This document shows positions 47,712-53,722 of a stretch of DNA of 64,000 nucleotides, piece by piece. Location of the stretch: contig NZ_CP079800.1 in the NCBI RefSeq assembly GCF_028869115.1, positions 1,240,001 to 1,304,000 of the forward strand. The letters are read 5' to 3'. Each line of letters starts with the position of its first letter. Within the stretch, counting starts at the first letter, position 1. The notes beneath the pieces were generated by a model. The model searched no databases, had not been told where the DNA came from, and saw only the letters and a list, made by a program, of their open reading frames with translations. The position numbers were made by a program, and so were the translations under genes. The DNA is from Pseudemcibacter aquimaris. GTDB taxonomy: Bacteria > Pseudomonadota > Alphaproteobacteria > Sphingomonadales > Emcibacteraceae.

Positions 47712-49268
47712 TCAGCCTTTCGGCACCGTAAGTGTAAAGGTCGTGCCATTGCCGGGTGTGCTGCTTACAGTAATGGTGCCGCCGTGTAGTTCAACGAGTT
47801 TCTTTGTGATAGCAAGGCCCAGTCCAATGCCGCCGATGTAACGTGTTGATGTGCTGTCAACTTGTGTGAACCAGTTGAAAATGTGCCCTTTGGCATCAAG
47901 GTCAATACCGCATCCGGTATCAGATATGGATATTTCAATAAACGGTCCGACCTCTTTTGTGCTGATGTCGATAATGCCTTGTTCTGTAAATTTAATGGCA
48001 TTGCTTAAGAGTTTATCAAAAATTTCCAACAATTTTTCTTCGTCGGCGTAAACGTCGCTGTCAACAAAATTGCTGGTTAGGGTTAAACCCTTGTCATTTA
48101 ATTTATATGAATGATGTCTGATTGCGTTTTGTGCCACTTGTTTTAAACTGATATTGCTGGGCGATATGGTCATCATGCCCGCTTCTAATCTTGAGAAATC
48201 AAGTAGGTCTCCAATTAATGTCAAAAGTCGCTTGCCAGAATTATCCATTTTACCGACATATTTTTTAAGTTCTGAAAAACAATTTTCCACAAGTCTGGAA
48301 ATGTAATCCATATCACCGGATTTTTGTTCTAATGCCTCAAGTAATTTTTTTGTTGAGGGTAGGCGTTCCGGATGAGCAAGAATTGGCGAATAACCGAGTA
48401 TTATTGTTAACGGAGTTCTTAATTCGTGGCTCATCATGTTCAGAAATTCTGATTTCGTACGGTTTGCGAGTTCTGCTTGCCTATAAATCCTGTTTAAATC
48501 GAATAACAATGCCACTAATATCACAAGATAACTTGCCATTTTTAAAAGGTGGGAAATCGATGAGATTGCATCAAAAGTTTCCGCTGAAAACGGGATATAA
48601 AAACATTGGACAGCAAAATTAATAATCAATGAAATGGCCAGGCAAAATTCAATGGTGTTATTGTCCCATTCGTGTCTGTATAAAAATCCGAATAACGCCC
48701 CACCAAAAAGAAAAGCGGGTATTAATTCAAGTGGCCGTGCAAAACCAAGTAGGCTGTATAATTCCGGCACAATTGGCGTATATGCAAAGAATAAAAATAC
48801 TAAAACGGTCGAAAAAATAGCAATCGTTAAATATAATTTTTCCTTTAAGGGTGTGTCCTTATATGATTTGTTTAAAAGAAAAATCATGCTGATGAATAGT
48901 GTGATGGATAAATACATCCGCGGTGCAAGCCAGCTCCAGGGAAAGCGGAAAATAATGCTATCCGGTGCGGATTGGGTTAGCGCGAAATGGGCAATAAGTC
49001 CGTGAAATGCATCAAGAAATGCGGTGCCGATAAAACCGGCACCAATGAAAAAGATCAAATTTTCTTTTCTGGAATAATATCTGACCATCGCCATAAGCCC
49101 GACGAATAATGCAAGAAGTGTCGATATAACTTCGACAAGTGAATGTGATGTTAAGCTGCCCTTCCATTGAAGGGAAGGTGTGATGATCGCCCCAATCAAT
49201 AAAAGTATAAATACGGAAAATAATATTATTGCCCGTTCATTGGTTTTTTTATTGTTTTCATTTTCCAA
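47712..49268 (-). CDS. Sensor histidine kinase with MASE3-like membrane domain
   Basis: The 518 residues start with about eight hydrophobic helices (residues 13-255); FFIGAGFIGTAFLDAFHGLIAHF resembles the MASE3 motif with its Asp and His. A short coiled linker leads to HisKA with the phospho-acceptor His281 in MMSHELRTPLTIILGYS, then HATPase_c with KLLSNAIKFT, ISDTGCGIDLD and IGGIGLGLAITKK. MASE3 ligands are unknown. The protein ends with HATPase_c and no receiver. No response regulator is adjacent. Confidence 0.9.
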   Translation of the reverse strand: MENENNKKTNERAIILFSVFILLLIGAIITPSLQWKGSLTSHSLVEVISTLLALFVGLMAMVRYYSRKENLIFFIGAGFIGTAFLDAFHGLIAHFALTQSAPDSIIFRFPWSWLAPRMYLSITLFISMIFLLNKSYKDTPLKEKLYLTIAIFSTVLVFLFFAYTPIVPELYSLLGFARPLELIPAFLFGGALFGFLYRHEWDNNTIEFCLAISLIINFAVQCFYIPFSAETFDAISSISHLLKMASYLVILVALLFDLNRIYRQAELANRTKSEFLNMMSHELRTPLTIILGYSPILAHPERLPSTKKLLEALEQKSGDMDYISRLVENCFSELKKYVGKMDNSGKRLLTLIGDLLDFSRLEAGMMTISPSNISLKQVAQNAIRHHSYKLNDKGLTLTSNFVDSDVYADEEKLLEIFDKLLSNAIKFTEQGIIDISTKEVGPFIEISISDTGCGIDLDAKGHIFNWFTQVDSTSTRYIGGIGLGLAITKKLVELHGGTITVSSTPGNGTTFTLTVPKG

Positions 49269-49320: not shown

Positions 49321-49420
49321 GTAAATAAATAAAGGCCCGGAATTACTTAAATAGTAACCCGGGCCGTAAGTTTGTATGTCTGTTAGGGGGAACGAGGGGG
49401 GAGGAAATCAGACATACTAT
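49321..49420 (-). ncRNA. Possible sRNA: anti-Shine-Dalgarno hairpin plus terminator (cuckoo/CcsR-like)
   Basis: On the minus strand a 9-bp stem, GTATGTCTG/CAGACATAC (49417-49409 with 49382-49374), closes a 26-base loop containing TTTCCTCCCCCC and CGTTCCCCC. This CCTCC core is complementary to a Shine-Dalgarno sequence. Immediately after comes a strong terminator (49365-49334: GGCCCGG paired with CCGGGCC and AGTAA with TTACT) and a T-rich tail to 49321. The order of small basic ORF, anti-SD loop hairpin and terminator matches the described layout of alphaproteobacterial CcsR/cuckoo RNAs. Expression is not shown by sequence alone. Confidence 0.5.
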
Positions 49421-49426
49421 GGAATT

Positions 49427-49549
49427 TTAGAATGAAAAATTATAGCGTTTTGGCGTCTCGATCGAATATGAAACTCTGCCCATTCTTCTGGAACGTCTTC
49501 TTGATCTTTGACGACGATTGATGCTTTTTCTTTTCAGTAACACCATCAT
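49427..49549 (-). CDS. Small Arg-rich ORF upstream of the sRNA-like hairpin
   Basis: This 40-residue ORF is too short for most gene callers. The first of two adjacent ATG codons, at 49549, has AAAGG six nt upstream. The product is extremely basic, with INRRQRSRRRSRRMGR in the middle and a C-terminal ETPKRYNFSF. A longer version from an ATG at 49585 (52 residues) lacks a ribosome site. It does not show the DUF1127 signature of the proteins encoded with known CcsR RNAs. It overlaps the broken end of the LysR gene on the other strand. No clear promoter was found. It may be a leader ORF of the sRNA or spurious. Confidence 0.45.
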   Translation of the reverse strand: MMVLLKRKSINRRQRSRRRSRRMGRVSYSIETPKRYNFSF

Positions 49550-50279
49550 TGCTGCCTTTGTACGACGCTTAATTTTGCATGACATCGATCATCTGTGTGA
49601 TACGGCGAAACTTGCCAGTAAATCTCTTGGTGGGATCATCCACCTTGGTGTTCCGCCATCATTTGGACCGTATTTATTACCGTTTATTATTCCAAGGCTG
49701 CATAAGGACTTCCCGGATTTAAAATTACATATTACCGAAGCTCCACCAAGGGAACTTGAAATCGGCCTTGATCAGGGGAAATATGATTTACTGTTATCAT
49801 CGACACCAGCATTGATGGCAGAACTGAATTGCATGACCTTGATAGAAGAGCCGCTGATGGTTGGGCTTTCCCCGGAAAATAAACTTGCTGAAAAAGATAC
49901 GCTGGTGGGTGAGGATTTATCAGGGCAAAAGGTCATGACCCTCGGTGTTGGTCATCAGCTTTATGAGCAGGCGCAATCGATTTCAACACAGTATGGTTGC
50001 CAGATCATGAGCGAATATGAAGGTACCAGCTTAGACGCGTTAAAACATATGGTGGTGATGAATATGGGGATCAGTTTTTTTCCGGCTCTTTATGCCATAT
50101 CCGATATTGAAAAGGATGATGATATTATCGCGCTACCATTTAAAGGGGGAACGATCAAAAGATCGCTTGGGCTAATCTGGCGACGGACCAGCCCAAGAAT
50201 TAAAGATTTCCATGTCATCGCCGACATTATTAAATCCGCCGTTAAAGAACGATTTGATGATGTGGTGATAGTTAAATGA
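49518..50279 (+). pseudogene. 5'-truncated LysR-type regulator (OxyR-like effector domain only)
   Basis: The frame opens at a TTG at 49518, with an in-frame TGA at 49509 upstream. The residues from RLILHDIDHLCDTAKLASKSLGG onward match an OxyR-like LysR protein from its linker helix to the C-terminus (GVPPSFGPYLLPFIIPRLHKDFPDLKLHITEAP, then MGISFFPALYAISD). The roughly 70-residue winged-helix DNA-binding domain is missing; I find no HTH in any frame of the 200 nt upstream. There is no ribosome site. It is probably a decayed regulator, whose 5' end was replaced by the small-ORF/sRNA unit. The convergent MFS gene may have been its target. Confidence 0.75.
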
Positions 50280-50287
50280 ATTATGGG

Positions 50288-51487
50288 TTACTCGGCAACG
50301 GCAACATTCAAATGTTTTCTGATGTTTAGCCCGACAAACAGGTAAATCAGAAACGCACCCATTGCCATTGAGCCACAAACTACAAACATCATGTGATATC
50401 CCATGCCAAATTCAAGCATACTGGCGGCCACATTGGGGCCAAGGAATTGACCAAAACCAATAACAGCAGGGACGAGTGCTGCGAGCATGCCGCTGCGGTC
50501 CATGTGAGCGATCATCGCCGCCTGATAAATATCAATGAATGTCCATAAGGTCATGAAGGCAAAAAGACTTATAACCAGTGTCGTTTCACTAATGCCCGCA
50601 TAAAGCATAATTGCGCTTGCAGCCATAGCGAGCAGGCCAAAATATAATGGTTTAAATAGGCCGTATCTATTGGCGAAATGCGCCAGCACGCAGCCGATAA
50701 TGGCAAATATCGATGACCAAGTCAGAACAGGTGTGATGAATGATTGTGCAAGCCCGTCACTAAGGGCCGCCAGTTCGATGTAGGTGTAATAACCACCGAT
50801 ATTAATGTAATAAAGACATATTGCCGATAAACACATAACGGGCAATATTTTCGGTACTTTCCAGTTCACTGCTTTTTCTGTTGCCATTTCCAGGTCATTA
50901 AGTTCTTTTTCATTAAGCGGGTGCTTGGGAATAAAAAGCACCAACCCCGCTATTAAGACACCCAGAATGATGAAGACAATATAAATCCCATTCATAGATA
51001 ATTGCGGCAAAAAATGAAGCGCTGCCGCGGTGGAAAATGCAAACCCAAACAGTTCAAGGTTAAAGGCAAAAACCGGGTTTGTAGCGCCACTTAACGTCGC
51101 TGCCGCAACTCCGCAGAAAAGCCCGCTGGCGATACCGGAAAACAGACGCAATATTAATATTTCCTGATAAGTGCCAAGCACCATACATAAAATATTGGCC
51201 CCCAGATAAAGTACAAGTGCGCTGTAAATAATATGCCATCTATTGATGCGGCTCACAAAAAAGGCGCTGAGTACAGCGCCAATTGCTAGTCCACCCATGT
51301 CTGCGCCCCAAATGCGGCCGACCTCGACTTCACTAAAGCCTGCCTTGGCCACAAGAGCCGTACTTAAAACGGGCACACTGACCGTCACATTATACCCGAT
51401 CAGTGCGATTGCGACCGCTGCGAGCAAACAGCTCCAGCGATCAAACGGATTACTTTTGGCTGCCCCTGCATCCACATTATTTGACAT
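50288..51487 (-). CDS. Major facilitator superfamily transporter
   Basis: The 399 residues hold about twelve membrane helices in two halves. The first half has VEVGRIWGADMGGLAIGAVLSAFFVSRINRWHI, a relative of the MFS loop 2-3 motif, and ANILCMVLGTYQEILILRLFSGIASGLFCG in TM4. The substrate is unknown. It ends 9 nt from the truncated LysR gene, which converges on it. A TGTGATCACA palindrome lies 25 nt upstream of its start, in the gap to COX15. Confidence 0.9.
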   Translation of the reverse strand: MSNNVDAGAAKSNPFDRWSCLLAAVAIALIGYNVTVSVPVLSTALVAKAGFSEVEVGRIWGADMGGLAIGAVLSAFFVSRINRWHIIYSALVLYLGANILCMVLGTYQEILILRLFSGIASGLFCGVAAATLSGATNPVFAFNLELFGFAFSTAAALHFLPQLSMNGIYIVFIILGVLIAGLVLFIPKHPLNEKELNDLEMATEKAVNWKVPKILPVMCLSAICLYYINIGGYYTYIELAALSDGLAQSFITPVLTWSSIFAIIGCVLAHFANRYGLFKPLYFGLLAMAASAIMLYAGISETTLVISLFAFMTLWTFIDIYQAAMIAHMDRSGMLAALVPAVIGFGQFLGPNVAASMLEFGMGYHMMFVVCGSMAMGAFLIYLFVGLNIRKHLNVAVAE

Positions 51488-52781: not shown

Positions 52782-53270
52782 ATGAATAAATTTCTATCAG
52801 CAACAGCGATATTGATTGCAATGAATTTGATACCTGTAAACGCGACTGCGCAAGAAAGTGACCCAATTGACGATATTTTTAAACGTGTAGAAGAAGTCCG
52901 TCAGGATATTGAACGCGCACGTCGTGGCCGCGAAGAAGATTGGAACCGTGACCGCGAAGAAGACGAACGTGACTGGAACCGCCGCTGGGAAGAGGATGAG
53001 CGTGATTTTCGCCGTGAACAGGAAGAACGTCGTCGTGAATTAGAAGAACGTGAAAGAGAGTGGCGCGAAAAACGTGAAGAAAGCCGCCGTGAATGGGGCA
53101 TGGAACAAGCAGAAAAAGAACGCAAGTGGCACGAGAAAGAAATAAAGCAAGCGGAAAAAGACCGTGAAAAACTTGAAAAAGAAATGGCACGTGCGGAAAG
53201 AATGCGTAACAATCCAGGACGTGGGAATAAGAAAAATAAGCCCGGGCGTGGCAACAAACCTAATGATTAG
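52782..53270 (+). CDS. Secreted highly charged single-helix protein, copy 1
   Basis: The 162-residue protein has a signal peptide (to about residue 24, NATAQ) and then a stretch of about 100 residues almost entirely Arg, Glu, Lys, Asp and Trp, with units such as EEDERDWNRRWEEDERDF and EREWREKREESRREW. Such i/i+4 Arg-Glu patterning is typical of single alpha helices (ER/K) rather than coiled coils, as heptad hydrophobics are few. The C-terminus is Gly/Lys/Asn-rich (NPGRGNKKNKPGRG). Function is unknown. Regular Trp spacing is notable. A shorter relative follows. Confidence 0.75.
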   Translation: MNKFLSATAILIAMNLIPVNATAQESDPIDDIFKRVEEVRQDIERARRGREEDWNRDREEDERDWNRRWEEDERDFRREQEERRRELEEREREWREKREESRREWGMEQAEKERKWHEKEIKQAEKDREKLEKEMARAERMRNNPGRGNKKNKPGRGNKPND

Positions 53271-53356: not shown

Positions 53357-53722
53357 ATGAAATTTTTTAAAACGATTATTATATTATTTGCGTCTGTTTT
53401 TTTTGTTTCCAATGCTTCATTGGCACAAGATAATGCTGATGTTGTTAACGAAGCCTTTGCAAAAGTTGAAGAAGTGCGAGCAGAGGTCGAACGTGCACGC
53501 GCGGATCGGTTAAATGAGTGGACCCAAAAGCGAGAATCTGAGCGCGAGAAATGGGAAGAAAAACGCTCGAAAGCTGAGGAAAAATGGCTTGAAAAAGAAC
53601 AAAAGCGTGCGGAACGTGAAGATGCAAAAATTGCTAAAGAGTTAGCGAAAGCGGAAGAAATCAAAAAAAATCCGACAAAAGCAAAGAAAAAGAAGAACCG
53701 CACTGGCAGTAGACCATTTTAA
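53357..53722 (+). CDS. Secreted highly charged single-helix protein, copy 2
   Basis: The 121-residue protein has a signal peptide (to about residue 23, SLAQ), then ADVVNEAFAKVEEVRAEVERAR, matching IDDIFKRVEEVRQDIERARR in copy 1, and a charged helix (WTQKRESEREKWEEKRSKAEEKW). It ends KKNPTKAKKKKNRTGSRPF, also like copy 1. The pair is a tandem duplication. It may be a periplasmic spacer, a binding helix or a charge buffer; none is shown. The cutA remnant follows within 4 nt. Confidence 0.75.
   Translation: MKFFKTIIILFASVFFVSNASLAQDNADVVNEAFAKVEEVRAEVERARADRLNEWTQKRESEREKWEEKRSKAEEKWLEKEQKRAEREDAKIAKELAKAEEIKKNPTKAKKKKNRTGSRPF

Follow-up and report, generated by a model that had tools for sequence, protein, structure and literature searches.

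A stem-loop and terminator behind a shortened Arg-rich frame and beside a truncated lysR: a probable deletion scar with the look of a small RNA module

The window analysed here, a stretch of 64,000 nucleotides, carries on its minus strand a short basic frame, a stem-loop and a terminator, and next to them on the plus strand an incomplete gene of the OxyR-like lysR type. Downstream on the minus strand, 47712-49268 encodes a MASE3 histidine kinase; to the right, also on the minus strand, an MFS transporter gene occupies 50288-51487. The features that concern us are the following:

49321-49365, minus strand: intrinsic-terminator-like stem (49334-49365) with a T-rich tail, seen in the fold and at the same place in relatives
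49374-49417, minus strand: 3'UTR stem-loop with a perfect 9-bp stem and a 26-nt loop (49383-49408), from the fold and shuffles
49394-49406, minus strand: C-rich segment that gives the loop its CCTCC and is not conserved (single copy; compared with relatives' loops)
49430-49549, minus strand: 40-codon Arg-rich frame, a probable C-terminal remnant of a small basic gene of the 86-aa type, from an ungapped match to the G008 gene
49562-49576, no strand: probable deletion junction, with lysR homology from about 49566 and small-gene homology to about 49573-49576
49518-50279, plus strand: truncated OxyR-like lysR frame of 253 aa, without the helix-turn-helix part, with homology from about 49566

A sequence-only reading of this DNA had described the minus-strand features as a 40-residue Arg-rich ORF followed by a hairpin and a terminator, and had likened them to the cuckoo/CcsR small RNA modules of Rhodobacter. 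The ORF is present as described: the ATG at 49549 starts 40 codons that include 11 Arg and 3 Lys, an SD-like AAAGG stands 5 nt ahead of it in the DNA, and, read from a further ATG at 49585, the frame spans 52 open codons. That reading also held that the ORF is not DUF1127, and Pfam at E up to 10 indeed gives no DUF1127 for the 40-aa frame, which likewise had no Pfam DUF465 match, no NCBIfam model and no phage match.

A search of 296 genomes of the order with the 40-aa sequence matched four at E up to 0.01. One was G008, a same-genus relative represented by an Emcibacteraceae MAG contig (E 0.0086), in which the window frame aligns without gaps to the last 50 codons of an 86-aa basic gene; 19/50 residues are identical, and none of 10000 residue shuffles matched as well. 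Two other genomes, G059 (E 0.0018) and G042 (E 0.0042), score slightly above G008, and there the matching Arg-rich frames fall within a GC-rich gene which by eye looks like thrS; we treated them as composition. G008 was accepted as a true relative because of synteny and the full-length match, and at its C22 locus a stem follows the stop. The 86-aa query matched seven of these genomes at E up to 0.05, among them weak matches in G045, G230, G136, G283 and G082 (E 0.003-0.037). In the window's own genome this query retrieved only the part corresponding to residues 39-86, and it found the lost start of the small gene nowhere else in that genome. At the DNA level, a search with 49330-49562, scoring two candidates per genome, matched 30 of the 296 at E up to 0.1; outside its own genome the matches span 20-39 nt only (best E 6.3e-4), an absence that says little because the same search missed the G008 locus. 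Two matches to other frames of 49430-49560 (PHROG 30063, E 0.19; Herpes_TK_C, E 0.072) were weak and taken as chance. We rejected an origin in a mobile element or phage: the region has no match in plasmids or phages, neither the 40-aa nor the 86-aa protein belongs to a PHROG family, and the 86-aa protein has no relative on a viral contig.

The plus-strand frame contains a LysR_substrate domain and no helix-turn-helix domain. Its match to the OxyR model begins at position 69 of 305, and therefore the first ~68 residues are missing. It resembles OxyR-like LysR regulators in its effector domain, and differs from them in having no DNA-binding domain and in scoring 139, where the OxyR equivalog model demands 329. 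The G008 relative (90% identity) is open over 309 codons and the G001 relative (65%) over 308; both include the DNA-binding part in translation, and the DNA homology to G008 begins abruptly at 49566 and continues at 82% over 703 nt. The sequence-only reading overlooked both the missing DNA-binding domain and the truncation of the small ORF at that very point. Over about 238 codons the lysR remnant, 90% identical to its G008 relative, is still open, and it may have been truncated recently or may still be made.

The intact arrangement is seen at the G008 C22 locus, where a complete OxyR-like lysR diverges from the 86-aa basic gene, which lies 121 nt upstream on the other strand and has AAAGGAG upstream of its ATG. 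A divergent lysR/small-gene pair of the same kind is present in G001, so that the pair is intact in both of the relatives holding this lysR at 65% identity or more; among 14 loci around LysR relatives (two of them on the same contig), a clear small-gene neighbour was found only in the window, G008 and G001. Measured in G008 coordinates, the window is without about 0.45 kb: some 40 codons from the start of the small gene, the upstream region common to both genes and the helix-turn-helix part of lysR. Its minus-strand frame ceases to match at about codon 39-41 of the G008 small gene. Two truncated frames stand in the window in the order of their full-length homologues. Because the intact state occurs in two relatives, the window state is most simply a deletion, and from this we infer the direction of the event, from a divergent ancestor to the window. 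The 40-aa ORF would be a 3' remnant, because the small-gene start and the upstream region are missing relative to G008; the frame described by the sequence-only reading holds up, and its standing as a complete small gene does not. We consider it likely that the region is a deletion scar in which the tail of the small gene, its 3'UTR stem and its terminator are fused to the truncated lysR. Several points count against this reading: the intact pair is found in two genomes only, one of them a MAG; the window junction is read from assembled sequence and could in principle hide an assembly fault; the lysR remnant has kept its frame open; and long decay should have left the window with a poorer stem than the intact relative, yet its stem is perfect and no worse.

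The stem-loop at 49374-49417 consists of GTATGTCTG, the 26-nt loop ATTTCCTCCCCCCTCGTTCCCCCTAA and CAGACATAC, confirming the perfect 9-bp stem and 26-base loop reported earlier. When the 65 nt ahead of the terminator were shuffled 2000 times with dinucleotides preserved, no perfect stem of at least 9 bp arose, and none of 1000 shuffles of a 64-nt stretch folded as well. A 120-nt fold reaches -31.4 kcal/mol (z -5.9, 0/200 shuffles as good), and with the ORF included, over all 229 nt, the fold stands out less (z -2.45, 2/200 shuffles as good). Behind the stem-loop, the strong intrinsic terminator of the sequence-only reading is recognizable as a stem with one bulge and a T-rich tail, and in a simple consensus scan the site at 49334-49365 is absent from the list, presumably because of the bulge. 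At G008 C22 the stop is followed by TTCCAT, then by GTATGTCTG-CCATTGCCAATT-CAGACATGC, then by a terminator, and terminators occupy the same place at G008 C115, G003 and G001. With the arms placed by eye at three loci (window, G008 C22 and G008 C115), all 9 of 9 pairs are standard; changes are one-sided at pairs 2 and 3 and two-sided at pair 5 (G-C to A-U in G008 C115). A fold lies between stop and terminator at all five loci (window, two in G008, G003, G001), with UTR limits set by hand; the numbers of shuffles as good, out of 1000, were 0 for the window, 8 and 12 for G008, 38 for G003 and 0 for G001. The stems of G003 and G001 have no sequence in common with that of the window. The anatomy of small basic ORF, stem-loop and terminator to which the sequence-only reading drew attention therefore recurs at the two G008 loci and, more loosely, in G003 and G001. 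The stem and terminator of the window are most likely an ordinary 3'UTR end left by the deletion.

The loop, unlike the stem, is not conserved. Its CCTCC-bearing part is a single copy in its own genome at up to 3 mismatches, the orthologous loop at G008 C22 is 12 nt long (CCATTGCCAATT) and has no CCTCC, and the loop at G008 C115 is 23 nt long (ACGTTTCCCTTCCATCGACTACT) and pyrimidine-rich (GTTTCCCTTCC). At the four relatives the 130 nt that follow the stop hold no CCTCC; the motif occurs within that distance at 3/51 DUF465-like sites, and among the five related loci in the window only. Related loci thus keep the stem and do not conserve the loop, and the finding which the sequence-only reading had named as speaking against it, a CCTCC loop not conserved in relatives, is what we observe for the loop. 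CCTCC itself is rare in the window (198/127,948 stretches of 26 nt, both strands). The window has 11 clusters of stretches that reach 14 C or more, which makes the C-rich loop unusual, not unique; by expectation, a looser match to the 13-mer, allowing 2 mismatches, turns up 0.65 times per window.

Hairpin loops of cuckoo/CcsR RNAs bear a CCUCC anti-SD motif. A working module of that kind, with a small basic protein and a CCUCC hairpin loop pairing with the Shine-Dalgarno sequences of targets, would account for the layout, for a C-rich loop carrying CCTCC whose composition is rare in the window, and for the pyrimidine-rich loop of the second G008 locus (GTTTCCCTTCC). The CIN1 locus of Rhodobacter, ccaF1-CcsR1-4, is described as a gene for a small basic protein, hairpin RNA and an intrinsic terminator (PMC10253847; PMC8625941), with four homologous hairpin RNAs in tandem in R. 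sphaeroides, an RpoHI/RpoHII promoter and processing by RNase E (PMC10253847). What the window shares with it is the layout only, which closes with an intrinsic terminator (the stem at 49334-49365 and its T-rich tail). Unlike the Rhodobacter locus, it has one hairpin before the terminator instead of four sRNAs, as the sequence-only reading had seen; neither the 40-aa frame nor its 86-, 76- and 58-aa relatives give DUF1127 in Pfam at E up to 10; CCTCC is confined to 1/5 related 3'UTRs, its own, and is missing from the 12-nt loop of the orthologue; and the homologous upstream region and gene start are deleted. Rfam covariance models, by which the proposal could be checked, gave no family at gathering score for the region (best 19 bits against a cut-off of 100). 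The suggested cuckoo-like variant keeps its layout, without DUF1127, a conserved CCTCC loop, multiple hairpins or an intact gene, and we regard a working module in the window as very improbable. There is a slightly better, still small chance that the deletion made a new short gene, a 40-aa Arg-rich one still expressed from the ATG at 49549 with its AAAGG-type site, and that the 3' end persists as a stable RNA through read-through or a new promoter. The SD-like AAAGG 5 nt before this ATG and the intact frame, stem and terminator all suit such a gene. However, the openness of the 40-codon frame is inherited, because it predates the deletion, and no minus-strand promoter-like site was found within 49430-50640; the promoter scan is weak evidence, because shuffled sequence yields such sites just as often (9 found, 9.7 expected).

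Another conceivable origin of the palindrome is an interspersed repeat, one copy of which inserted at the 3' end without any relation to the small gene. A palindrome whose outer arm is related, GTCYGCTTYNGGCCNRAAGCRGAC, does occur in multiple copies in two same-genus genomes (10 sites in G005, 11 in G003) and once each in two more (G002 and G012), and one G005 copy carries GTATGTCTG...CAGACAT. It is found in none of the other 9 of the 13 same-genus genomes, the window's own included; the exact pattern has 0 copies in G000 and G008, the window contains 0 copies at 3 mismatches, and in G008 C22 the stem follows the stop at the corresponding position, with matching TTCCAT flanks. A repeat origin thus appears highly unlikely to us.

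A deletion scar would imply the following course of events. In the ancestor, an OxyR-like lysR would have diverged from a small DUF465/YdcH-like gene, both being read from a shared upstream region; the version of the small gene now seen in G008 carries an Arg-rich tail, and its mRNA would have ended in a stem-loop and an intrinsic terminator. The window genome would then have lost ~0.45 kb with the small-gene start, the shared upstream region and the DNA-binding part of lysR, so that the minus strand retains ~50 codons from the end of the gene, followed by the 3'UTR stem and terminator. For the intact relatives, the most likely role of the stem is a commonplace one in the 3'UTR: with the terminator it would shield or define the 3' end of the mRNA. 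In the window, stem and terminator without a start or upstream region of their own are probably either silent or active only in halting antisense read-through from the MFS gene (50288-51487). The feature is real yet mostly ordinary, a 3' remnant with stem and terminator beside a truncated lysR. It illustrates that a convincing sRNA-like layout can stem from a deletion fusing two divergent genes, and that one comparison with a syntenic relative settles such a case.

As a by-product, this work offers a modest lead: an undescribed group of Arg-tailed proteins that branches near DUF465 and whose genes have a structured 3'UTR. The link to DUF465/YdcH (PF04325) comes through G001, whose lysR-adjacent protein scores 36.7 bits against a Pfam cut-off of 25 and whose gene occupies the position of the G008 86-aa gene and of the window remnant. 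The G008 86- and 76-aa proteins and the window remnant have no DUF465 match in Pfam and no NCBIfam model, and differ from DUF465 in their basic C-terminal tail. A profile comparison by hhalign of three Arg-tailed with seven canonical DUF465 sequences gave 83% probability (E 8.6e-6) over 49 columns from thin alignments; membership of the small gene in DUF465 rests on the G001 score and on this comparison of modest strength. We read the Arg-tailed proteins, at four loci (the window remnant, two in G008, one in G003), as a branch near DUF465, of which the window would hold only the tail of one. For canonical genes, 47 of 67 DUF465 rows were examined, namely 46 canonical sites in the same family and the lysR-adjacent G001 gene, the other 20 being left out. 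A simple finder placed a terminator at 15 of the 46, a lower bound because it had missed the G008 C22 and G003 terminators visible in folds, so that 'no terminator' at the remaining 31 is to be read with that in mind. Six of the 15 were testable for an extra fold, and at none of the six was it significant (best 11/200 shuffles); as the test is small and the finder incomplete, the extra stem as a mark of the Arg-tailed branch is suggestive only. By analogy, an Arg-tailed DUF465-like protein, small, basic and RNA-binding, and a 3'UTR stem-loop RNA with a conserved stem and a fast-changing loop might form a ccaF1-CcsR-like module in the intact relatives, unrelated to the Rhodobacter one, which we think improbable; it rests on three stems and one compensatory change. 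Such a module might retarget its released 3'UTR RNA through loop changes, and that the C-rich loop of the window was one retargeted version seems just as improbable. Among the papers listed on DUF465, and on DUF465/YdcH together with small RNA, no title or opening abstract line mentions a DUF465-linked sRNA. Two canonical DUF465 genes lie ~1 kb apart on opposite strands in G000 (C1, positions 2863086 and 2864266), a pairing that recurs in many genomes of the family.

Two further observations concern other parts of the window. The minus-strand stretch 42516-42579 matches the Rfam family isrJ at 39.9 bits against a gathering score of 37; isrJ is at home in enterobacteria, and the match is possibly due to chance or to a similar hairpin. 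On the plus strand, the neighbouring frames 52782-53270 and 53357-53722 are Glu/Arg-rich with signal-like starts, and look like tandem paralogues of secreted coiled-coil proteins.
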